Shown here piece after piece: positions 2,311-43,311 of a DNA stretch of 64,000 nucleotides (positions within the stretch are counted from its first letter, which is position 1; every line of letters begins with the position of its first letter). Source of the DNA: Spirochaetaceae bacterium (GTDB lineage Bacteria > Spirochaetota > Spirochaetia > SZUA-6 > DRHE01). The notes under the pieces are model-generated. The model did no database searches. It saw only the letters and a program-made list of their open reading frames with translations, and was not told the DNA's origin. The translations under genes were made by a program, and so were the position numbers. Location of the stretch: positions 4,544,007-4,608,006 of the forward strand of contig CP070696.1 of NCBI GenBank assembly GCA_020353535.1, written 5' to 3'.

Positions 2311-4125
2311 TTACAGCCGCTCCAGGCACTGTCTCAGCAGCTGCCCGTGGTAGGAGGCTGATTCTGCCAGCTCCCGGTACAGTTCCCTGGAGGTTGCCAT
2401 AACCTCGGTAAAATCTCGCCCTCCCTCGGGATTATCGACAATCATATGAATCAGCGGCTGAAACAGGAATCCGGCGATTTGACGGGATGCCAGGGACATG
2501 ATTTTTTGATCTACCTCCGCCAGAGCCGGGACAAGCGCCGCTGCCGCTCTGCCGCTGCCTGACAGCTCAATCCCGCTGCGCGCCAGTTCCTGCAGCTGTT
2601 GCAGCTCAAGCTCCAGTTTCCGGAGGCTATCCACGACAGGCTCCGCCCGCTGGTCCTGTGCCATCTGCCTGCCTCTACGCCTCAGATCGGACAGGACGGT
2701 ATCGATGCGGCGGCGCAGCGGAGGCAGCCGCAGAAGTTCCCGCAGTTGTATATGCTCCATCCCTTCAACGGCGATCCCTTCCGCGGCCAGAGTGAAGGTT
2801 GCCGGGCCGCTTTGCCGTGGTTGCTGTTTGAGCTGGTTTTCAAACCATGATTTGTAGATCAGCATGCGGCGATCGGTGAGGGTCCATTCCCCCCTATTAT
2901 TCTTCAGCGCCGTGGGCCGGGCCTGATGCAGGTAGTCGAAGCTCATCTGTTCGACGGGAACGTACCTGAATGAACGCCCGTGCATGGATTCCTCGAAAAA
3001 GGCACCCCTGGCATGGGTCCGTTTACCGGGAAAGCCGAGATCCAGACCGGCCATGTAAATGCAGGGGCAACCAAAATAGCGGCACAGGTCCCAGGCGGTG
3101 GTGGCCACCGATCCCCCGGCACCGATCAGTCCGCGTTGCCCGATGATTCTCTCGATGTAGCTGCCGAGGGGAAAGAATGAGGATACGTAGAAAATCTCCT
3201 CCTCCTGTCCCCCTGCGCTGCGAAACACCCTCGGATGGGCGGAGGACTCGGATACGAGAATCGTGCCCCCGCGCGGAAGCCAATCCAGATGCCGGCTGTT
3301 CCAATACTGCGGATCCACGGTTACAAGGAAATCCGCCTCTACCCCTTTGCTCCTGCAAAAGCGATAGGAGGTGTCCACCGCGACGATCAGGAGCCGTTCC
3401 CGGAGGGCTTCAAGATGGGGAAGCACTTCATCAAGGGAAGGGCCCGCCGCAAGAATAAGGGCAGGTATGTTGGAGAAACAACTCCGACCCACCCGAATGC
3501 CGGGATTCGTTATGAAGCTGCCAAGATTTTTCAGAAGATTACGGACCCACAGTTCTCCGAAGCGTCTTAAGGTGTTGATGTTGACTTTCCGCCTGTCAAA
3601 AATCGAAGACAGGAGCGTCTCCACCCGGCGGTAGTATTCAAATTTGCTCAGAGCCACGAGGCGGAGAATACAGAGTTTCTGAAGGGGCAGCTTTTCCACC
3701 TCTGTCATGACTGCCTCTGCTTGGTCCCCAATACACCAGCGGGTCGAAGGCCGGGAGAGCAAGGTCCTCAGATCTCGAGCAGCCAGGGCCTGCAGAAACA
3801 GTCCCGGATCCTGTTCGACTACCAAAAGCGGTCTGTCCGGAAAGTATTCAGAGAAGGCTTCGGCCAGATAGCCCATTCCAAAACCCAAGACAACAGCCGC
3901 AGACGGGGCGGTAGCGGTTTCTCGGGCCACGATGCGCCGGGCCTCCTTCATGGGATCGTAGCGGGAGTGGAGAAAAGCGCCGGCAAGCTGCGCGGTTGGA
4001 CGCCCCGCAGGGGTGTCAGCAATCTCGTACCGCTGCTGTCCCTGGGAGCTTTCCAGTGCCTTGGCCTTGAGATCGGGCTGTCGGCCGTAGAGTGCCTCGA
4101 GATTGACCGCCGTGTAGTTCATCAT
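2311..4125 (-). CDS. Motility-associated (Maf-type) glycosyltransferase-like protein
   Basis: A 604-residue protein of the family often annotated as motility-associated factor glycosyltransferase or MptE-like (DUF115). The N-terminal part contains a nucleotide-fold segment VVLGFGMGYLAEAF (about residue 79). The core starts near residue 226 with LILAAGPSLDE and includes the conserved block from about 335 with GAGGSVATTAWDL and MAGLDLGFPGK. Members of this family are linked to flagellin glycosylation in polarly flagellated bacteria and are common in spirochaetes, which is the likely role here (inference). Two tandem ATG codons are possible starts. The first overlaps the stop of the upstream PBP gene (ATGA arrangement), so the two are co-translated. 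An unrelated sugar or pterin transferase activity cannot be excluded from sequence alone. Confidence 0.8.
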   Translation of the reverse strand: MMNYTAVNLEALYGRQPDLKAKALESSQGQQRYEIADTPAGRPTAQLAGAFLHSRYDPMKEARRIVARETATAPSAAVVLGFGMGYLAEAFSEYFPDRPLLVVEQDPGLFLQALAARDLRTLLSRPSTRWCIGDQAEAVMTEVEKLPLQKLCILRLVALSKFEYYRRVETLLSSIFDRRKVNINTLRRFGELWVRNLLKNLGSFITNPGIRVGRSCFSNIPALILAAGPSLDEVLPHLEALRERLLIVAVDTSYRFCRSKGVEADFLVTVDPQYWNSRHLDWLPRGGTILVSESSAHPRVFRSAGGQEEEIFYVSSFFPLGSYIERIIGQRGLIGAGGSVATTAWDLCRYFGCPCIYMAGLDLGFPGKRTHARGAFFEESMHGRSFRYVPVEQMSFDYLHQARPTALKNNRGEWTLTDRRMLIYKSWFENQLKQQPRQSGPATFTLAAEGIAVEGMEHIQLRELLRLPPLRRRIDTVLSDLRRRGRQMAQDQRAEPVVDSLRKLELELQQLQELARSGIELSGSGRAAAALVPALAEVDQKIMSLASRQIAGFLFQPLIHMIVDNPEGGRDFTEVMATSRELYRELAESASYHGQLLRQCLERL

Positions 4126-6002
4126 TCCAGATACAGCGTAATGACCGTTCCGGGCTTCAGGGGGGTTCCAGGAGGGGGATCCTGAGCCACGACGTACCCG
4201 TCTCCGCTCATCCGGATCTCGAACTCCCTTTGTTGAAACAGCGGCAGTAGCAACCGTTTTGGCATTCCCAGGAGCTCAGGCATGTCAGAGTTAACCTGCA
4301 GCGGTTCAGGCAGCCTGATGCGCACGCTTCCCGAATGCTGGATAACCTCGGCTCCGCTACGGGGAATTCCGAGATAATCCACCAACCACTCTGCGGTCTC
4401 CTTGAAAACCGGAGCGGCAACCTGACTCCCGTAGTAGGCTGGTCCTTTCGGGTGGTCGATGACCACATAGATGATCAGTTGAGGATCGTCGGTGGGCAGT
4501 ATACCGAGGTACGAGGCTACGAAGTGATCCTCGGAGTATTCCCCGGTCTCCGGGTCCAGCACTTCCGCGGTTCCCGTCTTCGCCGAAACCCGAACGCCCT
4601 CAACCCGCCCCCGGCGGGCAGTTCCTCCGTCCTCGGTGGCGGTCTCCATCATCTGCAGAATCTGTTGGGCGCTTTCCGGGGACAGAACTTCTTGAAGAGG
4701 TTCCCGTTCCAGCTTTTGGATCGTTTCGCCCTGGGCAGATACAATTTTTTTTACGATATGGGGTCTGAGGATCAATCCTCTGTTCGCAAATACAGTAGCT
4801 CCCTGAAGTATCTGAAGGGAGGACACAGATACCTCCTGACCAAAGGCGATTGTAGCTTTGCTGCGGGCCGACCAGCGAACCGGTTCGGACAAAATGCCGG
4901 CACTCTCTCCGGGCAACGGCAGATCCGTCGGTTTCCCGAAACCGAAGAGTTCGAGCATCCTGTGAAAATCCTCCTCCCCAACCTGTTCGGAGGCCAGAGC
5001 AGCGCCCACATTGCAGGAGTACTTCAGAATCTTCTCGGCATTGACCCATCCATGACTGGCCAGATCCCTTATCTCGATGGTTTGACCGTCCGGAAGCACC
5101 ATCTGATAGACTCCGCCGCAGAAAAACTCCGCCTCCGGATCCAATCCACCGAGCTGGAGGAACGAAGATATGGAAAAAATCTTGAACACCGATCCCGGTT
5201 CGAAAGCCTGGACCAGGGGCAAATTTTTGAGGGCCCGGTTGTCGTAGCGGTTGTACTCGTTCGGATCAAAATTTGGTATCCCGCAGTAGCCAAGAATATC
5301 GCCCGTGGCAGCTTCCATTACCAGAATACTGACGGCGTCCGCCTGGTTTTCCTCATATGCCATGCGGGCGTAGCCTTCAATTGCCTGCTGGATGTTGATA
5401 TCAATTGTGAGAAACACCTGGTGCCCCAGTACCTCTTTCTCCTCTCGGACTGTGCTAACCGCCGGGGGAGAGAGGACGTGGTTGAAAGTATATTCGATCC
5501 CGTCCAGTCCGATATTGTCGACACCGACATAGCCGAGAACATGACTGGCCAGGGTCTGTTCCGGGTAATTGCGGCCAAACTCGGGGGAAAGATCAATACC
5601 CGCGAGTTTGCCCTCAGCCTTAGCGGTTTGGATGGCTTCAGATTCCGTCGGAGTGATCTTGCGTTTGATGAACACAAAACCGGTTGAGTTTTCCAGCCGG
5701 CTCAGCACAGTCTCCAGGGGAATCTCGAGGATCTGGGAAAGCAGTTCGGCCGAGTCATCAGGCTCGGCTACGTTGGGTATCCAAGCGGAGACCGAGTCCA
5801 GGCGGGTTGAGATAGCCAGAATCTTGCCGTTTCGATCCAGAATGGGTCCACGTTCGACCACCGGTAGGGTGATCGATTCGGGCGTTTCGCCCTGGGGTGT
5901 AAAGATCATCAGCTGCACCAGCCTGCCGAGGATCAGCAAGACCACTGCGGCAAGAAGCAGGATGAAGAAGTACAACCTTCTTCGTTCTTTGTTGTTGCTC
6001 AT
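4122..6002 (-). CDS. Penicillin-binding protein, FtsI-type D,D-transpeptidase with PASTA domain
   Basis: Cell-wall transpeptidase that cross-links peptidoglycan in the periplasm. From ATG at 6002 the product has 626 residues; an upstream TTG (6026) would add eight. Seen in order (TTG numbering): a short basic N-terminus, one membrane helix (about 18-40), a PBP dimer domain, then the transpeptidase domain with the three catalytic motifs SVFK (279-282), SCN (337-339) and KTG (483-485), and a C-terminal PASTA-like module (about 575-634). All active-site motifs are intact. It is the class B PBP type used in septal synthesis (FtsI/PBP3) or its Spo-like relatives; no ftsL, mraW or mraY neighbours are present, so assignment to division is inference. 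It is coupled to the Maf-like gene downstream. Confidence 0.88.
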   Translation of the reverse strand: MSNNKERRRLYFFILLLAAVVLLILGRLVQLMIFTPQGETPESITLPVVERGPILDRNGKILAISTRLDSVSAWIPNVAEPDDSAELLSQILEIPLETVLSRLENSTGFVFIKRKITPTESEAIQTAKAEGKLAGIDLSPEFGRNYPEQTLASHVLGYVGVDNIGLDGIEYTFNHVLSPPAVSTVREEKEVLGHQVFLTIDINIQQAIEGYARMAYEENQADAVSILVMEAATGDILGYCGIPNFDPNEYNRYDNRALKNLPLVQAFEPGSVFKIFSISSFLQLGGLDPEAEFFCGGVYQMVLPDGQTIEIRDLASHGWVNAEKILKYSCNVGAALASEQVGEEDFHRMLELFGFGKPTDLPLPGESAGILSEPVRWSARSKATIAFGQEVSVSSLQILQGATVFANRGLILRPHIVKKIVSAQGETIQKLEREPLQEVLSPESAQQILQMMETATEDGGTARRGRVEGVRVSAKTGTAEVLDPETGEYSEDHFVASYLGILPTDDPQLIIYVVIDHPKGPAYYGSQVAAPVFKETAEWLVDYLGIPRSGAEVIQHSGSVRIRLPEPLQVNSDMPELLGMPKRLLLPLFQQREFEIRMSGDGYVVAQDPPPGTPLKPGTVITLYLE

Positions 6003-6106
6003 GTCACCGGGAAGATCTATCCCCAAACCTGGTATCTCGAGGCGTTGAATTCAAAACCTTTTTTCGCCCTTTCATCATAATATGGCATGTAATTAATGTC
6101 GATATT

Positions 6107-6215
6107 ACGATTGAGGACATCACGATCATAGGGAACGATATTATTACGACAGACGCACGGAGTGCGGCTGGAGGATGAGGTCGCGATAGCGATCTCACGA
6201 TTGAGGACATCACGA
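6107..6215. repeat. 19-bp direct repeat pair, 90 bp apart, in a divergent promoter region
   Basis: The sequence ACGATTGAGGACATCACGA occurs exactly at 6107-6125 and again at 6197-6215. Both copies are in the same orientation between the divergent PBP and M23 genes. The 90-bp period is close to a whole number of helical turns. They could be binding sites for a regulator that controls both gene sets, or the remains of a local duplication. No other copy was noticed in the window, but this was judged by eye. Confidence 0.6.
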
Positions 6216-6234
6216 CCGAGAGGACTTCACAGAT

Positions 6235-7431
6235 TTGATTGCAGTCATCGAGCAGCAGAGAGTCGGACGGCGAAAACCGGCGAATGAGCAGCGGGGGAAG
6301 CCCAAAATCCTGGAGTTCACCTTTCCCGGGCTTCGGCAAACCTCACCCGTAAAACGAACCAGTTGGCGGACGGTCCAACAGATAAGGCGTCCCAAAAGGG
6401 GGAGCAAACCGGGCGGTCATGCCCGTCTGAAGACCCCCGCGACCCGTACAACTTCACATCCCAGGAGTTTTCCACGAGGATTCCCAAAGATTCTGAAGAA
6501 TCTCTCCCGGGCGGATTTGATCCTGGCCGCCGTCGTAGCCCTGTGTCTTCTGATCCCCCTCGCATTCCGTCTGTCCTTCCTGGCACCGGAACAAGTGGAA
6601 ATCGAGCTTCCCGTGGCAGAGGACGTTGAGAGTGCGATGATCCACTATCTCATTCCTGAAGGGCAGGGGGAGATTGATGTGGGGCCACCGGATCAGAAAA
6701 TTCTTGACGTGATAAAAACTACGAGTTATACAGTCCGTAGTGGAGATACAATCTCGGGAATCGCCCAGCGTTTCAATCTCAGTATGGACACGGTGATCAG
6801 CTTCAACGGCATTCAGGATGCCAGGAGTTTGAAGGTCGGTACGGTCCTCACAATACCGAACTCCAACGGTTTGAAATACAAAGTAAGAAGAGGAGACTAT
6901 CTGGGAGGCATCGCCAAGAAGTACGCAGTCGCCCTGAATGAACTGCTGGACTGGAACAGCCTCGAGACCTCTGTTATCGTGCCTGGCCAGGAATTGTTCA
7001 TTCCAAGAGCGCGGCTCACCGAGATGGAGCGAAATCGCGTATTTGGACGTTTATTTATCTATCCTACAAAGGGCAGGATTACGGACCGTTTCGGAGTGCG
7101 CCGAGATCCCTTTACCGGCCTGCGACGCTTTCACAACGGTGTGGATATGGCCGGACCGGTAGGCACGCCAGTTATCGCCTCCATGTCCGGAAAGGTGGCC
7201 ATGTTGGGCTTCAATCCAACGTATGGAAAGTATATCATTCTCACTCACCCCGAGGGATTCCAGACTCTCTACGGACACCTCGATTCCTTCAAGGTACAAA
7301 AGGGAGACAGTGTCACGCAGGGGCAGCGGATCGCCGATATGGGTAGTTCTGGCTATAGCACGGGTAGTCATCTTCATTTTTCGATCTTTCGTCGAGGAGA
7401 ACCGATTGATCCTTTCCAGTACCTGCACTAG
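6235..7431 (+). CDS. Membrane-anchored LysM/M23 peptidoglycan endopeptidase (first of two)
   Basis: A 398-residue wall hydrolase. It has a long basic cytoplasmic N-terminus (about 1-90), one membrane helix (about 93-115), two LysM domains (about 165-208 and 214-257) that bind peptidoglycan, and a C-terminal LytM/M23 zinc peptidase domain. The zinc and catalytic residues are present as HNGVD (H300, D304) and HLH (H379, H381), so it should be active, cutting peptide cross-links. The start is TTG at 6235; no better in-frame start precedes the membrane helix. The second M23 gene follows after 37 nt. The basic tail of about 90 residues before the helix is unusual for this family and could bind a cytoplasmic partner. 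Confidence 0.88.
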   Translation: MIAVIEQQRVGRRKPANEQRGKPKILEFTFPGLRQTSPVKRTSWRTVQQIRRPKRGSKPGGHARLKTPATRTTSHPRSFPRGFPKILKNLSRADLILAAVVALCLLIPLAFRLSFLAPEQVEIELPVAEDVESAMIHYLIPEGQGEIDVGPPDQKILDVIKTTSYTVRSGDTISGIAQRFNLSMDTVISFNGIQDARSLKVGTVLTIPNSNGLKYKVRRGDYLGGIAKKYAVALNELLDWNSLETSVIVPGQELFIPRARLTEMERNRVFGRLFIYPTKGRITDRFGVRRDPFTGLRRFHNGVDMAGPVGTPVIASMSGKVAMLGFNPTYGKYIILTHPEGFQTLYGHLDSFKVQKGDSVTQGQRIADMGSSGYSTGSHLHFSIFRRGEPIDPFQYLH

Positions 7432-7468
7432 GCTGATTCGCTCCGCCCGAGAGTCCGCGCGCCATCAC

Positions 7469-8551
7469 ATGGCGGCAGGAATAGATCAGGTCCGGCATAT
7501 CCTGCGGCTTCGTTTGTATTACCCGCTGAAAGCGCTGCTGGTCCGTTTTCTCCGCACGGTGGAGCAGGCTGTCCAGATTTTCACCTGGCGATTCTGGAGG
7601 CCCCGTGTCCGCCTTCTGGTTAGTCTCTTGTTTCTCTTCGTGTCTGCGGGACTGGCCGTGTATCAGGTCAGAAGTGTTCAACTGGAAAAGCAGAAATTTC
7701 TTTACTATCCCGAGTCCTGGGTTTTCCGTTCTTCCGCGCGAGAAGCGCTCCAATACGCCGATAATAGAAGTGGTAGCCAGGAAACACAGTCGGTTGGCGG
7801 GGGCTCTTTGAGCGTGTTGCCCATCGATATCAAGTTGTACAGAGTAAGGGAGGGTGACACTCTGTCCGGAATTGCGGAAAGGTTCGGTATGGACCTGGAC
7901 ACGATCGCTTCTCTGAATCGTGAATGGGGCAGCGGTGTGCATCTCGTCCAGATTGGTGAAGCGATAAAGATACCGAATCAGGATGGAATCTACATCGAGA
8001 TCGAAGAAGATTTGGATGCCCTGTGTGAGGAGAAGGGTGTTCCCGTTGAGGTAGTGTCCACTGTCAATGGTGTTGATCGGACAGAAATAATCCCGGGGAT
8101 GGAGTTGTTCTTTCCGGGTGTTCAGCATACAGGCATTGAACGTAGCGTCATCACCGGCAGTGCATTTCTCAAGCCGGTAGCCGGTTGGCTGACCTCCGGT
8201 TTCGGTTATCGCAGGGATCCCTTCACAAAAGAGATGCACTTTCACAGGGGACTCGACCTGGCCGCTCGTGCGGGAACATCCGTACGGGCAGCCTTGGATG
8301 GAAGGGTCATCGCCGTGGGGTACGATCCGGTGCTGGGAAACTACATTCTAATACGGCATCAGATCAGTTATTCCTCAATATATGGACACCTCAGCCAGAT
8401 CTGGATCTCCAGGGGCGCCACCGTGACCAGAGGACAGCGGATCGGGGCTGTCGGCAACTCGGGTAAGTCTACGGGTCCGCATCTGCACTTCGAGATCCGG
8501 CGGCGCGGAGTGCCTATCAACGCCTGGGGCTTGATGTCCTCCCGATATTGA
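7469..8551 (+). CDS. Membrane-anchored LysM/M23 peptidoglycan endopeptidase (second of two)
   Basis: A 360-residue paralogue of the preceding protein. It has a cytoplasmic N-terminus rich in Arg, one membrane helix (about 48-67), a clear LysM domain (about 123-168), a degenerate second LysM-like stretch (about 172-216), and an M23 domain with HRGLD (H259, D263) and HLH (H338, H340), all zinc ligands intact. ATG 7469 is the first reasonable start after the upstream stop; no Shine-Dalgarno sequence is obvious, which fits translational coupling. Two adjacent active M23 enzymes with different N-termini suggest distinct partners or sites of action rather than simple redundancy. Confidence 0.87.
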   Translation: MAAGIDQVRHILRLRLYYPLKALLVRFLRTVEQAVQIFTWRFWRPRVRLLVSLLFLFVSAGLAVYQVRSVQLEKQKFLYYPESWVFRSSAREALQYADNRSGSQETQSVGGGSLSVLPIDIKLYRVREGDTLSGIAERFGMDLDTIASLNREWGSGVHLVQIGEAIKIPNQDGIYIEIEEDLDALCEEKGVPVEVVSTVNGVDRTEIIPGMELFFPGVQHTGIERSVITGSAFLKPVAGWLTSGFGYRRDPFTKEMHFHRGLDLAARAGTSVRAALDGRVIAVGYDPVLGNYILIRHQISYSSIYGHLSQIWISRGATVTRGQRIGAVGNSGKSTGPHLHFEIRRRGVPINAWGLMSSRY

Positions 8552-8568
8552 GAATCGAGGGTATAAAC

Positions 8569-9663
8569 GTGAAACGAATTCTGTTTGCACTAATCGGGTT
8601 GTTGGCTCTGTTTACGATAATCAGGGCTTATGCGCAAGAGCAGGAGGGTGAGAGTCGATACGTCATCCATCCCGGAATTCTCGAGTTCGAGACCACCGAA
8701 GGCGGCGCCCGACTGGCTTTCGGTTTTCTCGAGCGATCCGAGGAGCGGGGGCCCGGGCGGACCTGGAATCTGTTCCCGGTGCGGCTGTCGCTGCGGGCGG
8801 GCAAGCAGAGCTTTCTCATTGCCATGAACGGCCTGTCTTTTTTAAGTCCAGCCGGCTTGCGCATTGGTCGACCCATTACCATTCGTGATGTGAAGCGTGG
8901 GGATGTTATCAGTATCGGCGGCGATGTCACAGTGGAAGGTACGGTGGAGGGGGATGTATGGACCCTGGGAGCGAACATCAACCTGCTCTCCGGGGCGACC
9001 GTTGCCGGTGACGCGGTGGCACTAGGGGGTACCGTTGAGGCGGACAGACGATCCAAGATCGGTGGCAACAAGCAGTCCCTGCCCAACATCAAGATACCCT
9101 TTCTCAGTTTGCTGAGCTCCGAGCACTCCGCCGCTACCTTTCGCTTCATCATGGAAATAATGGGGGTTTGTCTTTTTCTCCTGCTGTTGTTCCTCTTCGT
9201 TCACTACGGGCACGGACACCTCTCCAGACTGGGAGGTGTGCTCTCCTCCCGCTGGAAGAGCGCGGTCCTCTATCTGGTGCTTGCCTTGCTCATCGTTCCC
9301 GTGTTGATAGCCCTGCTGATCGTGTCTGTGGTCGGGATTCTCATCATTCCCTTCATTTCGATCCTGGTGATGTTTCTCGCCTACGCAGGCTACCTTGCCA
9401 TGGCCGTGCGCCTGGGTCTTTGGCTGCGCAAGTCCTCACCGGAGGTCGCTCCGGCTGCGGCTTACACAACTGGACTGCTCGGCCTGCTGGTGCTTAAAGG
9501 ACCGGTGCTGCTCGGAATCCTCTTCACCCTGCTGACCGCGGATTTCTTTCAGGGATTGGGCCGTTTCCTCTCTGCCATCGGTACCATCGCCGTGGCTGCC
9601 GCCACGTTGTACGGCCTGGGGGGTGTTCTGCAGTACCTGCGTGAACAGGTGCGCGGCGGCTGA
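8569..9663 (+). CDS. Exported/membrane protein with bactofilin-like beta-helix domain
   Basis: A 364-residue protein. The start is GTG 8569, eight bases after GAGGG; it gives a clean signal-like helix ending near AYA. A stretch at about residues 100-160 has the short repeated G-x-V pattern (for example SIGGDVTVEGTVEGDVWTLG) of bactofilin or polymer-forming folds. Four or more hydrophobic helices follow (about 190-350). The gene lies 17 nt behind the M23 pair. Known bactofilins are soluble cytoplasmic polymers that work with M23 peptidases in cell-shape control; here a similar fold would be on the periplasmic side of a membrane protein, which is unusual. Function is not established. Such proteins are usually annotated as hypothetical or polymer-forming cytoskeletal. 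Confidence 0.7.
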   Translation: MKRILFALIGLLALFTIIRAYAQEQEGESRYVIHPGILEFETTEGGARLAFGFLERSEERGPGRTWNLFPVRLSLRAGKQSFLIAMNGLSFLSPAGLRIGRPITIRDVKRGDVISIGGDVTVEGTVEGDVWTLGANINLLSGATVAGDAVALGGTVEADRRSKIGGNKQSLPNIKIPFLSLLSSEHSAATFRFIMEIMGVCLFLLLLFLFVHYGHGHLSRLGGVLSSRWKSAVLYLVLALLIVPVLIALLIVSVVGILIIPFISILVMFLAYAGYLAMAVRLGLWLRKSSPEVAPAAAYTTGLLGLLVLKGPVLLGILFTLLTADFFQGLGRFLSAIGTIAVAAATLYGLGGVLQYLREQVRGG

Positions 9664-9727: not shown

Positions 9728-10510
9728 TTGAAGGGCAAATCGAAGTCAAGAAAGATAGGCCTGGCTCTGGGCGGTGGGGCCGCTCGCGGCTTGGCACACA
9801 TCGGTGTGTTGAAAGTCCTCGAGGAGGAAGGAATCGTCATACACCGTGTTGCCGGAACGAGCGCGGGAAGCCTGATCGGCAGCCTGTTTTGCGCTGGATT
9901 GGGCTGGCAAAAGATTGCAGAAGTAGCCCGGAATATAGACTGGGGTAATCTGGTAAGCCCTACCTGGCCCAGCCTGGGACTCGTGAGCCCCGACAAATTA
10001 GAAAAAACGTTGAATGATATATTACGGCGGAAAAGGTTCGAAGAGCTGGCCGTCCCTTTTCGGGCTGTGGCGGTGGATATCGCAAGCGGGGAAGAGGTGG
10101 TCCTGAACAGCGGCGCGGTAGCCCGAGCGGTACGTGCCAGCTGCAGTATCCCGGGAATTTTTGAACCCACCGAATTTGAGGGCAGGTTGCTGGTGGACGG
10201 TGGCCTGGTAAACGATGTACCTACCGATGTGGTCAAGGATATGGGAGCGGAGCTGGTGATAGGGGTTGACCTGAATGCAGATCGGGTGATCAACCGCAGA
10301 CCGGAGAACCTGATAGAGATTTTCTACCGCAGCCTTAATATCCTGATCTACAACAGCACCCAGAGGGCCAGACGAGTCGCCGATGTCATGGTTGTACCCG
10401 AACTTCAGGGTTTCGCCTACCACGATCTTAGCAGACTCGATGAGTTGATCGCTCGGGGTACCAAGGCCATGCGCGCCCAAATCAACAAGGTTAAAAAACT
10501 TACTCGTTAG
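9728..10510 (+). CDS. Patatin-like phospholipase (RssA/YchK type)
   Basis: A 260-residue acyl hydrolase of the patatin family, expected to release fatty acids from lipids with a Ser-Asp dyad. The oxyanion loop GGGAARG (15-21), the nucleophile elbow GTSAG (S45) and the DGG motif (D157) are intact. It starts with TTG 9728, four bases behind AAGGA. There is no signal peptide, so it is cytoplasmic or peripherally membrane-bound. It follows the envelope genes on the same strand after 64 nt. Substrate is unknown. Confidence 0.87.
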   Translation: MKGKSKSRKIGLALGGGAARGLAHIGVLKVLEEEGIVIHRVAGTSAGSLIGSLFCAGLGWQKIAEVARNIDWGNLVSPTWPSLGLVSPDKLEKTLNDILRRKRFEELAVPFRAVAVDIASGEEVVLNSGAVARAVRASCSIPGIFEPTEFEGRLLVDGGLVNDVPTDVVKDMGAELVIGVDLNADRVINRRPENLIEIFYRSLNILIYNSTQRARRVADVMVVPELQGFAYHDLSRLDELIARGTKAMRAQINKVKKLTR

Positions 10511-10530
10511 AATTTTAAACCCGCAGAATC

Positions 10531-11061
10531 TCACCCGCCGATCCTGGGTTCCATTCTGTACAGATACAAATGCAGTTCATCGTCTGCGGCTACCAAGGGA
10601 AAGCCTGAAAAGGTGAAGGTGTTGGAGATGATCCGCGTTCCCGGGCGCAGCTCCCGGCGCAGCTTGTCCTTCAAGCGCTCATTGGTCTCCTGGAGCAGGA
10701 AGGTGAAAATGACATCCGCATTGCCTAGATCCACGGAGAACATGTCCCCACGGATGATTTTCACCTGTTTCCACAGCCCGAGCACAGTCACGGCACATAC
10801 GCTCCAGATGTAGCGGGATATGTCCACCTCGATTCCCACGGCCCGTGCTCCGAACCTGCGGGCGGCTGCGATTACCACTCTGCCGTCTCCGCAGCCTAGA
10901 TCATATACAGTCTCACCCGGTTTGACCTCGGCCATGGAGAGCATCGTGTTGATTACCTCCCGAGAGGTGGGCACCCAAGGTGCACCTTTGGAGCTCGTCC
11001 ACACCAGGGACATGAGAAAGACCATGATGATAAAAAAAACCACAGCGATGAGAATTTGCAT
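10531..11061 (-). CDS. Membrane-anchored class I SAM-dependent methyltransferase
   Basis: A 176-residue protein with an N-terminal hydrophobic helix (about 2-23) followed by a Rossmann methyltransferase domain. Motif I is visible as DLGCGDGR (about 54-61) and an acidic residue follows at GIEVD (about 77-81). Later motifs are short, and the protein is of the small type often annotated as class I SAM-dependent methyltransferase. The substrate cannot be inferred. It is transcribed convergently with the patatin gene (20-nt gap) and divergently from the M28 peptidase. Confidence 0.75.
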   Translation of the reverse strand: MQILIAVVFFIIMVFLMSLVWTSSKGAPWVPTSREVINTMLSMAEVKPGETVYDLGCGDGRVVIAAARRFGARAVGIEVDISRYIWSVCAVTVLGLWKQVKIIRGDMFSVDLGNADVIFTFLLQETNERLKDKLRRELRPGTRIISNTFTFSGFPLVAADDELHLYLYRMEPRIGG

Positions 11062-11182
11062 GGATAAAGTTTGTCATGACTGGGCAGTAACAGGGAAGAG
11101 TCAGGAGCGCTGATCGCGATACCCCCTTGCCGACACTCCGTTTCTGTAAGTACGTTCAAGGTTGGGAGGTGTAGATTAGTTG

Positions 11183-13318
11183 ATGAAAAAACTGCTGTTT
11201 CTTCTGCCGGTTCTGGTTGCTCTGGGGGCCTGTCGGCCCGCTACGGATACCGGGGAAGCCGGGCCACCGGATTCCGGCAACGTAGTTTCCGTTCATCCTG
11301 AGCTGGCGGGATCGGACCTTCAGCAGATCCTGGCCGAGTATGTGAATTATCTTGCCTCCGATGCCCTGGCGGGACGGGAAGTGGGAAGTCAAGGCATCAA
11401 CCGGGCTGAGCAGTACATCGCCGATACGTTTGCGGCTCTCGGGCTTAGCAGTGTTCCCGGGCAGGAAGATTATTTCCTCGAATTTACGCTCTACCGTGGA
11501 GGCTACGATCCGGATGCCACCTCACTGTCGGTTCGGACTGATGGGACCTCCCTCAATGCTCGTCCCGGAGTGGATTTCCAACCCTTCAGCTTCTCCAAGC
11601 TGGGAGAGCTTTCTGCGGAGCTGGTATTCGCCGGCTACGGGATCACGGCTCCAGAATATGGGTACGACGACTATACCGGCCTGGATGCAGAGGGGAAGAT
11701 CGTGCTGCTGCTCCGCCACGAGCCACAGAGCCCCTCAGGATCGGACTATTTCCTGGGGGCCGATCTGACCCGACATTCCCTGTTCCTCACCAAAGTGGAA
11801 AACGCCCGGGCTCACGATGCGGCTGGTATGCTTCTGGTGACCGACCCGAAGAGCTACGCCGGACCGGAGGATTTACGGCTCCAGGAAGTGTTGGGTCTGC
11901 AACCCTCTGCACTCAGCCGCTACCCGGGAGTGCGACAATCCATTCCCGCCCTCCACATCTCTCAGGATTTCGCTGAAAAAATTCTCGGCACCTCCTCTGC
12001 TTACCTCGAGAGGCTGCAGGAACGTCTGGACGAGGGAACCGATCCATCGTTGTTCGATATCGGCCACATCGAGGTGAGCCTGAATGTGGCGGTGCAGCAA
12101 CGTTCGGAGGAGATCCAGGCCAGGAATGTAGCGGCCTTTTTGGAAGGCTCGGATCCGCTTCTGCGGGACGAGTGGATCCTGGTCGGTGCACATCACGACC
12201 ATCTGGGATCATACCCGGGGGAGGGGGATACGATATTCAACGGAGCCGATGACAATGCCTCCGGGGTTGCCGGAGTTCTGGCTCTGGCCCGAATCCTGGC
12301 AGAGCGGAAATCGGCACCGGCAAGAAGCTTGGTCTTTGCCACCTTTTCTGCGGAAGAGCAGGGTCTGTTCGGCTCTCGGGAGATGATCGAGGGGCAGATT
12401 CCCATAGAACAGATCGTGCTGATGATCAATCTGGATATGGTAGGCAGAAATCCCGAACGGCCGGTGCAGATCATGGGCTCCTCGTTCTCCCCGGATTTAC
12501 AAAAGTTGGTGGAGGAGGCCAATCAGGCGGTGGGGCTGCCTGTCCGCTATTCAAGCGGTCCGGAGGCCGCGGTTAGTGACCACGACCCCTTCTTCCGGGA
12601 GGGAATCCCTTTTCTGTTCTTCTTCACCGGCATCCATCCCGACTACCACGGCACGGCGGATCATGCCGATAAACTGAGCTACCCCAGATTCGCGGATGTC
12701 GTGGTGCTGGCCGCGAAAACCGCTACGCTGGCGGCTGATAGGCCGACACGCGGATCTACCATATATGTGGAATGGTTGGGTTTGACGCTGAGCATAGAAG
12801 ACGAGCAAGATGCGGTGACAGCAGAGATTACTGAAGTCGAAGCAGGAACAGCGGCAGTGGAATATGGATTGTTGGAAGGTGACAAGCTGCTCGCCCTAGG
12901 TGGAGTGGTGCCGGAGGGGAGTCGGGATATCAGACGCAATTTAGAAGCGGTGCGTCCTGGTCGAAGCCTTACATTGAAGGTGTTGCGCGGGGAGCTGGAG
13001 CGGGAGATTCAGGTACAACGCGCCCATACCGGATATCTTGGAGTGATGGTTGGAGAGTTGGATGAGCAGTGGCGAAAACAGAACGATCTCGAAGCAAAAT
13101 CCGGAGTGCTCATCCGCCAGGTCCTGGAGGACGGTCCGGCCGGGAAGGCGGGATTGAACCAAGGGGACGTGCTGCTCGCCCTCAACGGAATTGCAGTGGG
13201 ACCGGAGAATTTGCGGGCGCTCTTGATGCGCCTCGGAGCCGGCGCCAGGGTTGAGCTGACCGTTCTGCGGAAGGGAGAGCGTCTCATCGTTCCCTTGATC
13301 CTTGGGCGCAGACCATAG
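11183..13318 (+). CDS. M28-family metallopeptidase lipoprotein with PA-like insert and two PDZ domains
   Basis: Secreted zinc aminopeptidase-like protein of 711 residues. The N-terminus is a lipoprotein signal (helix followed by LGAC). Between about 100 and 320 lies a PA-like region. The M28 domain shows the metal ligands in HHDHLG (about 335), GADDNASG (about 354), the catalytic SAEEQG (about 391), NLDMVGR (about 416) and HGTADHADK (about 489). Two PDZ domains follow (about 530-610 and 620-711). The M28 core is intact. A TTG one codon upstream sits at a better distance (10 nt) from GGGAGG than the ATG. PDZ domains on M28 enzymes suggest binding of substrate C-termini (inference). No neighbour explains its job. 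Confidence 0.87.
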   Translation: MKKLLFLLPVLVALGACRPATDTGEAGPPDSGNVVSVHPELAGSDLQQILAEYVNYLASDALAGREVGSQGINRAEQYIADTFAALGLSSVPGQEDYFLEFTLYRGGYDPDATSLSVRTDGTSLNARPGVDFQPFSFSKLGELSAELVFAGYGITAPEYGYDDYTGLDAEGKIVLLLRHEPQSPSGSDYFLGADLTRHSLFLTKVENARAHDAAGMLLVTDPKSYAGPEDLRLQEVLGLQPSALSRYPGVRQSIPALHISQDFAEKILGTSSAYLERLQERLDEGTDPSLFDIGHIEVSLNVAVQQRSEEIQARNVAAFLEGSDPLLRDEWILVGAHHDHLGSYPGEGDTIFNGADDNASGVAGVLALARILAERKSAPARSLVFATFSAEEQGLFGSREMIEGQIPIEQIVLMINLDMVGRNPERPVQIMGSSFSPDLQKLVEEANQAVGLPVRYSSGPEAAVSDHDPFFREGIPFLFFFTGIHPDYHGTADHADKLSYPRFADVVVLAAKTATLAADRPTRGSTIYVEWLGLTLSIEDEQDAVTAEITEVEAGTAAVEYGLLEGDKLLALGGVVPEGSRDIRRNLEAVRPGRSLTLKVLRGELEREIQVQRAHTGYLGVMVGELDEQWRKQNDLEAKSGVLIRQVLEDGPAGKAGLNQGDVLLALNGIAVGPENLRALLMRLGAGARVELTVLRKGERLIVPLILGRRP

Positions 13319-13421
13319 AAGGATAGGGGAGTTTCGTAGAAAACCGGATCAGGTTGTTTCTTGAATCCGCGCTGTCTGATAGCATATCGAAGTAACAAGA
13401 ATCCCAAACCATGGAGGCATC

Positions 13422-13607
13422 ATGAAGGCGATAGTAAACGAGGATCTGTGCATCGGATCCGGGAATTGTGAGGACACCTGTCCCGCCGTATTCAAAGTGG
13501 TGGATGGCATTTCCCGGGTTCAGATCGATGTCGTACCCGAAGCGGAGGAGAAGAAGGTCCTGCAGGCAGTCGACGGCTGTCCTGCCGGAGCCATCAGTAC
13601 CGAATAA
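13422..13607 (+). CDS. Single-cluster ferredoxin with Ser at the second ligand position
   Basis: A 61-residue electron carrier. The cluster motif reads CIGSGNC...CP: C10, C16 and C53 are ligands, C20 is present, but position 13, normally the second cysteine, is serine. In related ferredoxins with Asp or another residue there (for example Pyrococcus furiosus), the cluster is more easily converted to [3Fe-4S]. The same is plausible here. The gene begins with ATG 13422; GGAGG lies 5 nt upstream at 13412-13416. No obvious partner oxidoreductase is adjacent; thyA follows after 71 nt. Confidence 0.85.
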   Translation: MKAIVNEDLCIGSGNCEDTCPAVFKVVDGISRVQIDVVPEAEEKKVLQAVDGCPAGAISTE

Positions 13608-13678
13608 GGACTCTGGCCGTCCCCTATTCCACTGTTCCTCAACCCAAGAGGGATCCCGTTCGATGATGGAGAGAGACG

Positions 13679-14473
13679 ATGAAACAGTACCTGGATCTGA
13701 TGCGCAGCGTTTTGGAGAATGGAACGGACCGCGAAGACCGTACCGGGGTGGGAACCCGCAGCATCTTCGGCTATCAGATGCGTTTCGACCTTCGGGAGGG
13801 ATTTCCCTGCCTGACCACCAAGAAGCTCCATCTCCGTTCGATAATCCATGAGCTGCTCTGGTTTCTGGCTGGAGACACCAACATCCGCTACCTGACCGAG
13901 AACGGGGTGCGGATCTGGGATCCCTGGGCGGACGAAAACGGCGATCTCGGGCCGGTGTACGGCCGGCAGTGGCGTAGCTGGTCCGCCCCCGACGGCCGCA
14001 GCATCGACCAGATCGGCAGGATTCTCGAAACACTGCGAACCGATCCAACCTCCCGGAGAATGGTGGTGAGTGCCTGGAATCCGGCGGATCTGGATCGCAT
14101 GGCCCTGCCGCCCTGTCACTGCCTGTTCCAGTTCTATGCGGCAGAAGGCAGACTCTACTGTCAGCTCTACCAGCGCAGCGCCGACGTGTTCCTCGGCGTG
14201 CCCTTCAACATCGCCTCCTACACCCTGTTGACCTTGATGGTGGCTCAGGTCAGCGGGCTGGAGCCCGGTGAGTTCGTGCACACCCTGGGGGACGCTCACC
14301 TCTATCTGAACCACCTGGAACAGACCCGCCTGCAGTTGAGCAGAGAGCCCAGAAAACTGCCCCACATGCGGCTCAATCCGGAGGTGAAAGATCTGTTCGC
14401 TTTCCGTTTCGAAGATTTCACCCTGGAGGGCTACGATCCTCACCCCCACATCCCGGGGGAGATCGCGGTCTAG
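13679..14473 (+). CDS. thyA: Thymidylate synthase ThyA
   Basis: Makes dTMP from dUMP using methylene-tetrahydrofolate. The 264-residue length matches short-form bacterial ThyA. The catalytic cysteine is C146 in PPCHC. The N-terminal DRTGVGT phosphate-binding loop (20-26) and the conserved segment [13 protein letters not shown] are present and appear complete. It starts at ATG 13679 behind GGAGAGAGA. A dihydrofolate reductase gene, the usual partner, is not seen in the window. Confidence 0.96.
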
Positions 14474-14561
14474 CTGTGATAGTCGCCGTGGCGGAAGGAC
14501 ATGGGATTGAATCGCGTGGGATGGAATTCACACCGGAGATGGAAATGAGGGGAGCAACAGC

Positions 14562-15515
14562 ATGAGAGCAGTGGTGCATGATCGCTATGGAGAGCCGGAG
14601 GACCTCTACCTGAGGGAACTGCCCGAGCCGCGGATCACGGACCGGGAATGCCTGATTAAGGTCACCGCCGTGTCGGTCAATCCATCGGATTGGAAGACCC
14701 TGGCCGGGTGGTGGAGCTTCGCCACCGGCCGTCGCTTTCCGCGGCAGACGGGGATCGACTTCTCCGGTACGATCGAGCGAACGGGCCGGAAGGTAACCCG
14801 TTTCCGTGTGGGGGAAGCGGTGATGGGCTCGGTCATTCCCCTGCGCAAGGGCTGTCTGGCCGAATACGTGGCTGTGGCCGAGTCACATCTGTGCCGGATT
14901 CCCAAGAACGTTGCTCTGCCCGATGCCGCCGGCATCCCCGTGGCCTGCTCCACTGCCTACGTCGGCCTTCGCCACCGCAGGAAGGACCTGCAAGGCAAAC
15001 GGGTGCTGCTGATCGGCGGGGGAGGCGGGGTCGGCCACTTCGTGATCCAACTCGGCAGGGTCTTCGGCGCCCATATAACCGCGGTTTGCTCTGAAGGCAA
15101 GATGGAACTCTGCCGGGAGCTCGGCGCCGACCGGGTGCTCGACTATGGACAAGCCGATCCGCTGGAAAGCGGCGGAAGCTACGATCTGGTATTCAACTGC
15201 GCCTCAAGCATCTCCTATCCGCAGGCCAGGAGGATCCTCAATACCGGCGGGGAGTATCTGCTCCTCGAGACGCAGGGGCGGCTCTGGCTGTTTGCCTATT
15301 CGCTTTTCAGCCAGATCACCCCGAGCCGACGGCTGTGGGCGTTCCTGGTCAGTCCGGACGGCGAGCGCTACAACCGGCTGGCCGAACTGTTCGAGGAGAA
15401 CGATCTGAAGGTCGTTGTGGGAAGCCGCTATCCCATGGAGAAGGCGGCGGAAGCCTTCCGGGAGAGCAAGAACGGACACGCCACCGGTAAGATCATCATC
15501 GACGTGGCGCAGTAG
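14562..15515 (+). CDS. Zinc-independent MDR-family oxidoreductase (quinone oxidoreductase-like)
   Basis: A 317-residue NAD(P)-dependent medium-chain dehydrogenase/reductase. The N-terminal GroES-like domain and the Rossmann motif GGGGGVG (about 150-156) are visible. The Zn-binding cysteine cluster of alcohol dehydrogenases is absent, placing it with quinone reductase or enoyl reductase relatives. Substrate is unknown. It starts at ATG 14562 behind GGGGAG. It ends 35 nt before the end of the convergent secA gene. Confidence 0.85.
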   Translation: MRAVVHDRYGEPEDLYLRELPEPRITDRECLIKVTAVSVNPSDWKTLAGWWSFATGRRFPRQTGIDFSGTIERTGRKVTRFRVGEAVMGSVIPLRKGCLAEYVAVAESHLCRIPKNVALPDAAGIPVACSTAYVGLRHRRKDLQGKRVLLIGGGGGVGHFVIQLGRVFGAHITAVCSEGKMELCRELGADRVLDYGQADPLESGGSYDLVFNCASSISYPQARRILNTGGEYLLLETQGRLWLFAYSLFSQITPSRRLWAFLVSPDGERYNRLAELFEENDLKVVVGSRYPMEKAAEAFRESKNGHATGKIIIDVAQ

Positions 15516-42897: not shown

Positions 42898-43311
42898 ATG
42901 CCGAAAAACAACGATCATAAGGGCATCGAGAAGATCACCACGACCCTGGGAAAGGAAACGAGCTTCAACGGAGTGCTGCGTTTCAAGGAATCCCTGAAAA
43001 TCGACGGTACCTTCGAGGGAGAGATCGAATCACCGGGATTCCTCTATATTGAAAACGGTGCCACGGTCAAGGCCAACATCAAAGTGGGATCCGTAGTCGT
43101 AGGGGGTGTGGTGCGGGGGAACATCGAAGCGAGTGAAAGGCTGGAGATGCTGACCACGGGCAAGGTCTTCGGAAACATCCGAACGGCGAAGTTGAACATC
43201 GCCGACGGCGTCGTATTCGAGGGCAAGTGTGAAATGATCAAGAATCCCGAAAAGCTGGATATCTTCTCCGCACCGGTAGCCAATGTAAAGAAAGCAACCC
43301 AGAGTATTTAG
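42898..43311 (+). CDS. Bactofilin
   Basis: A 137-residue cytoskeletal protein of the bactofilin family: the repetitive beta-helix core spans about 20-115 with the typical alternating pattern (for example DGTFEGEIESPGFLYIENGATVKANI) between short disordered tails. Bactofilins polymerise without nucleotide and organise envelope enzymes, stalks or cell curvature. The start ATG 42898 follows the TPR gene by ten nt. A separate bactofilin-like domain occurs in the membrane protein at 8569-9663. Confidence 0.9.
   Translation: MPKNNDHKGIEKITTTLGKETSFNGVLRFKESLKIDGTFEGEIESPGFLYIENGATVKANIKVGSVVVGGVVRGNIEASERLEMLTTGKVFGNIRTAKLNIADGVVFEGKCEMIKNPEKLDIFSAPVANVKKATQSI

Follow-up and report, generated by a model that had tools for sequence, protein, structure and literature searches.

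The third gene of a spirochaetal LysM-M23 peptidase locus appears to be an enlarged form of a conserved membrane micropeptide

The window, a 64,000-nucleotide stretch of the genome of a Spirochaetaceae bacterium, carries three consecutive genes, here called M23a, M23b and P3, which diverge from a gene for a class B penicillin-binding protein (PBP; Table 1). Among named organisms, the closest relatives are MAGs of Spirochaetales. A preliminary description of this DNA recognized two adjoining membrane-anchored M23 enzymes with intact zinc ligands, followed after a gap of 17 nt by a gene whose product has a bactofilin-like beta-helix region and then membrane helices. Our analysis agrees on these points, the third product having a solenoid-like region, for which 'bactofilin-like' holds as a weak resemblance only, and several membrane helices. 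Both peptidase ORFs lie at the places given, encode a transmembrane segment, LysM and M23 domains, and contain the HxGxD and HxH zinc-ligand motifs, which are also present in 67 of 67 M23 proteins of related loci. By domain cut-offs and intact zinc ligands, M23a and M23b are predicted to be LysM/M23 peptidoglycan endopeptidases. For M23a, the TTG start gains support from a sister genome, which has an ATG at this position, and from the conserved N-terminal motif. P3 most likely starts at the GTG at position 8569, downstream of a GAGGG site, and with this start the gap to the M23b stop codon is exactly 17 nt. Between the PBP gene and M23a, ACGATTGAGGACATCACGA occurs as a pair, with one similar copy in the sister genome L048, and might be a regulator site; promoter and terminator scans performed no better than on shuffled sequences.

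Table 1. Features of the locus, with their positions in the window and the basis of each assignment.
Feature	Position	Strand	Basis and remarks
MptE-like/Maf-type protein, accompanying the PBP gene in the conserved neighbourhood	2311..4125	-	PF01973 1.7e-30; relatives with the same order
Class B PBP with PASTA, SpoVD/FtsI type, divergent from M23a	4122..6026	-	PF00905 3e-66, PASTA 1.2e-8
Divergent promoter region	6027..6234	.	ACGATTGAGGACATCACGA twice (6107-6125, 6197-6215); part conserved in sister genome L048
M23a	6235..7431	+	Basic cytoplasmic tail, transmembrane segment, two LysM (3.2e-28), M23 (9.2e-33)
M23a N-terminal cytoplasmic motif, MIAVIEQQRVGRR	6235..6273	+	Consensus M-x-x-[ILV]-[IL]-x-x-Q-x-[VI]-x-[KR]-R
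M23b	7469..8551 (exact start uncertain, ~7469)	+	Transmembrane segment, one LysM (1.9e-11), M23 (5.3e-32)
P3	8569..9663	+	N-terminal transmembrane segment, beta domain, beta-solenoid, about five C-terminal transmembrane helices; alignment, models, hydropathy
Micropeptide-homologous transmembrane segment of P3, VKRILFALIGLLALFTIIRAYAQEQ	8569..8643	+	Standalone-micropeptide profile, sole G000 match, E 2.4e-7; reciprocal search
P3 beta-solenoid, about three regular 18-19-residue rungs and one irregular	8839..9081	+	AF2, hhalign
P3 C-terminal membrane domain	9130..9630	+	Family-averaged hydropathy and charge; positive loops fit a periplasmic solenoid

The architecture of P3 is predicted from alignment, AF2 modelling and hydropathy. 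Modelling of residues 86-185 gave a confident solenoid core (pLDDT 74.8, core blocks 72-94). The full-length model, built from four sequences, was poor (pLDDT 47.9), and the fold search used the solenoid part only. Hydropathy and charge place the first helix N-in, with the solenoid after it and positive charge in alternate loops and at the C-terminus. The solenoid is thus predicted to lie on the periplasmic side, outside the cytoplasm.

We looked for P3 in 60 relatives and compared the matching loci. The gene is present in 20 of the 25 genomes of the window's order, and in all 20 P3-bearing relatives, which belong to six families of the order, it lies immediately 3' of the M23 gene or genes. 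The preceding gene is M23b in 13 loci and M23a in the seven loci of families f2 and f5, from which M23b is absent. M23a was found at every locus whose contig extends to it and, where the contig is long enough, divergent genes for an FtsI-type PBP and an MptE-like protein lie upstream. SecA usually converges on P3 from the downstream side, and genes for CheA and a response regulator lie further out in several loci. Three genomes of family f4 retain M23a and M23b and lack P3. The order M23a-(M23b)-P3 is kept in 20 of 20 P3-bearing relatives, which provides the linkage that the preliminary description had proposed to look for in other genomes. As this conserved linkage occurs beside a division-type PBP, the wall-remodelling part of the shape or wall-remodelling system that it envisaged is well supported, and the genes at 6235-9663 can be regarded as a conserved module of peptidoglycan remodelling that diverges from the gene for the FtsI-type PBP; the bactofilin-like partner in that proposal fared less well, as discussed below. 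In the window itself, genes for a patatin, a methyltransferase, an M28 peptidase, ThyA and a dehydrogenase (9728-15515) separate P3 from SecA, its neighbour in most relatives, probably as a result of insertion or rearrangement.

A search of the class Spirochaetia with a profile built from P3 rows only retrieved full P3 proteins together with short ORFs that match just the first ~30 residues of P3. These short ORFs sit directly 3' of M23a, with a convergent SecA gene beyond them where the contig extends to it. With a 25-column profile, we identified 49 standalone micropeptide ORFs in 19 families of the class, located 9-146 nt downstream of the M23a orthologue (48 of 48 at E<=4.4e-4, plus one at 0.005). 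Four matches at E 0.002-0.004 lie elsewhere and were taken to be noise, and short ORFs at the same place were spotted by eye in two further genomes (G034 and G036). The core of the micropeptide reads M[RK][KR]LV..LLALFTFI[RN]AY; the length of complete forms varies between 24 and about 51 aa, which leaves the helix as the part that is conserved. Shine-Dalgarno-like sequences precede the starts. In the core codons, G055 and G030 are separated by 13 synonymous and 0 nonsynonymous differences, and G110 and G138 by 14 and 1; closely related pairs are near saturation at synonymous sites, with nonsynonymous differences at 0-3 of ~49 sites. This pattern points to a protein-coding gene for a single hydrophobic helix under strong purifying selection. 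No Pfam family covers the micropeptide, no published description of it was found within the open-access literature, and outside Spirochaetia the standalone profile matched nothing at E<=0.001 in 296 genomes of the phylum. Some Spirochaetia (G009, G014, G019, G026 and families f24 and f29) retain M23a but have neither a detectable micropeptide nor P3, and the micropeptide is therefore not essential everywhere.

A profile built from standalone peptides only, with no P3 sequence, found the P3 N-terminus as its single match in the window's genome (G000, 4.84 Mb; E 2.4e-7). By this computation, the N-terminal membrane segment of P3 is homologous to the standalone micropeptide that follows M23a, and it is because this segment is the sole match in the genome that we interpret P3 as an enlarged form of the conserved micropeptide. 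Judged from these profiles, what has been anciently conserved in the third gene is the transmembrane segment at its N-terminus, a point overlooked in the preliminary description.

The unrooted tree of M23a shows one change between the P3 and micropeptide groups (support 98/94; 97% of bootstrap trees). Most simply, a micropeptide was extended by a solenoid and a membrane body, a direction that assumes a root off the branch between the two groups and is simpler because the micropeptide group covers far more families. Two proteins from other loci, L093 and L095, share the overall architecture of P3 and have detectable similarity to P3 positions ~95-275, but they lack the N-terminal micropeptide motif and no M23a, PBP or SecA gene was matched within ~1.5 kb of them. 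Proteins of this kind, with a signal peptide, a solenoid and transmembrane helices, could plausibly have supplied what P3 gained. Together with a protein of G010:C8, L093 and L095 carry a signal peptide, a solenoid and multiple transmembrane segments without a clear family name, and such proteins may represent an external counterpart of bactofilins.

The cytoplasmic tail of M23a also carries a conserved motif (Table 1), and 30 of 42 non-seed orthologues exceed the 1% threshold set by shuffled tails. The motif occurs class-wide in the LysM-M23 enzyme. LmdC and PbpC bind bactofilin through their N-terminal cytoplasmic regions (PMC10945521, PMC12448750), which makes a cytoplasmic recruiter of M23a a reasonable guess. 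By analogy, the motif probably recruits M23a to a cytoplasmic partner, either a divisome component or a true bactofilin.

Most likely, with a probability of roughly one half, the helix of the micropeptide serves M23a and/or the FtsI-type PBP as an adaptor in the membrane, P3 being an enlarged form of this adaptor with a periplasmic scaffold. The helix would insert N-in, and its conserved ALFxFI[RN]AY face would pack on a membrane helix, that of M23a and/or that of the FtsI-type PBP, a contact suggested by synteny. Once packed, it could control the place or time of cutting by the LysM-M23 endopeptidase. In the order to which the window belongs, this helix would also carry the periplasmic solenoid scaffold to the complex. 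More tentatively, and with doubt prevailing over confidence, the class-wide micropeptide (at least 24 aa, about one helix) could be a dedicated membrane subunit of an FtsI-type PBP/LysM-M23 complex that was enlarged once, in one order, to the polytopic P3, adding a periplasmic solenoid scaffold.

Alternatively, M23a and the micropeptide could serve elongation or helical shape instead of division, the neighbouring PBP being a bystander. M23 enzymes and bactofilins do set shape in several bacteria (PMC10945521), and the cytoplasmic motif of M23a could bind a bactofilin. However, M23a is widely found in divergent pairing with a class B PBP other than MrdA, and the elongation PBP is located elsewhere, with mreB, mreC and rodA. 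The genome encodes two class B PBPs, the second of which is MrdA by equivalog cut-off and lies within the mreB-mreC-mrdA-rodA cluster. The top NCBIfam model of the window PBP is spoVD, with a score under its cut-off. We call this protein FtsI-type by elimination, below the NCBIfam cut-off, since the other class B PBP is MrdA and the window protein bears PASTA and is closest to SpoVD. Given this arrangement, a role restricted to elongation or shape seems somewhat unlikely.

We consider it improbable that P3 is a membrane-anchored bactofilin scaffolding M23a and M23b in the way that BacA scaffolds LmdC, which was the idea of the preliminary description. The resemblance on which this idea was based is present, albeit weak: 14 of 20 P3 homologues match PF04519 at E<=1 (best 4.2e-4, all under the Pfam cut-off), profile comparison gave a moderate hhalign probability of 85.7% over 53 columns (E 5.5e-6), and L095, a solenoid and transmembrane protein of another family that resembles P3, scores just above the PF04519 cut-off. 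Nevertheless, the window protein itself has no PF04519 match even at E<=10, and Foldseek with the solenoid model returned nothing below 0.001, the best bactofilin (T. thermophilus, 6rib) appearing at rank 29 (E 1.4, TM 0.35). The P3 solenoid is, moreover, predicted to be periplasmic and has 3-4 rungs only, and true bactofilins are encoded separately. There are four of them in the genome (88-102 bits against PF04519), one in a known-type M23-bactofilin pair at C1:26837-28240 (L052:8338-9741), with the M23 gene first and the two genes 9 nt apart; this pair is likely the equivalent of LmdC-BacA and BB0246-BbbG. The neighbour of the window M23 genes is P3 and not a PF04519 gene. The possibility that P3 is a plain bactofilin was set aside, support from Pfam, NCBIfam, PDB sequence search, hhalign and Foldseek being weak or absent. 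On account of the weak Pfam, hhalign and Foldseek results and of the predicted external solenoid, we describe P3 as a solenoid membrane protein whose kinship to bactofilins may be distant and is unproven. Another of the four bactofilin genes is in the window (42898-43311, + strand; PF04519 101.5 bits), and 24 nt downstream of it comes a CinA-like gene; the bactofilin of genome G039 likewise has a CinA-like frame beside it, and the pair may be conserved (also L061).

It could also be argued that the P3 N-terminus is an ordinary signal peptide or anchor whose likeness to the micropeptide reflects hydrophobic convergence, P3 having simply replaced the micropeptide. The segment indeed has a charged N-terminus, a hydrophobic core and an AYA sequence. 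Yet it is the sole match in its genome although genomes hold many signal peptides, N-terminal residues of P3 such as L18, A20 and R26 are nearly invariant, and P3 and the micropeptide occupy the same gene slot, all of which makes convergence quite improbable. Least credible of all is a functionless leader or translational-coupling element: the ORF is short and at the operon end, but it has nothing to lead, being 3' of M23a with usually only the convergent SecA beyond, and its peptide is conserved despite near-saturated synonymous sites and retained as part of P3.

An M23 enzyme that is membrane-anchored, has a cytoplasmic tail and is encoded next to a solenoid protein is already known from BacA-LmdC (Hyphomonas, Rhodospirillum; PMC10945521) and BB0246-BbbG (Borrelia; PMC13393453). 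In those systems, however, a true bactofilin in the cytoplasm provides the solenoid, whereas that of P3 is part of a polytopic, apparently periplasm-facing protein. Furthermore, LmdC has coiled coils, and M23a, despite its tail and transmembrane segment, has LysM repeats instead and does not qualify as LmdC-type. Transmembrane bactofilins (Proteus CcmA and others, PMC12448750) resemble P3 in their N-terminal anchor and beta-helical domain, but P3 fails the PF04519 cut-off, has about five extra C-terminal helices and an anchor homologous to a free micropeptide. In its size and putative role, the micropeptide can be likened to SidA and DidA of Caulobacter, which are likewise very small and act on division from the inner membrane (PMC4211646). 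These two proteins inhibit division, DidA being damage-induced, whereas the micropeptide is fixed beside M23a and the PBP class-wide, with no induction known. RgsP-RgsM of Rhizobiales (PMC6107284) similarly combines a polytopic membrane protein with a membrane-anchored M23-type enzyme. RgsP is, however, a 7TMR receptor protein, and P3 a solenoid protein.

It is poorly understood how spirochaetes organize wall cutting as they grow and divide. A micropeptide whose gene, across much of the class, neighbours those for a LysM-M23 endopeptidase and a division-type PBP offers a small and specific target to test, and cultivated carriers exist, such as Salinispira pacifica, in which the small ORF after M23a has 41 aa. 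The P3 fusion is a natural experiment in which the anciently conserved part is the first helix, and this suggests that the first helix of P3, like the micropeptide, is a docking device.
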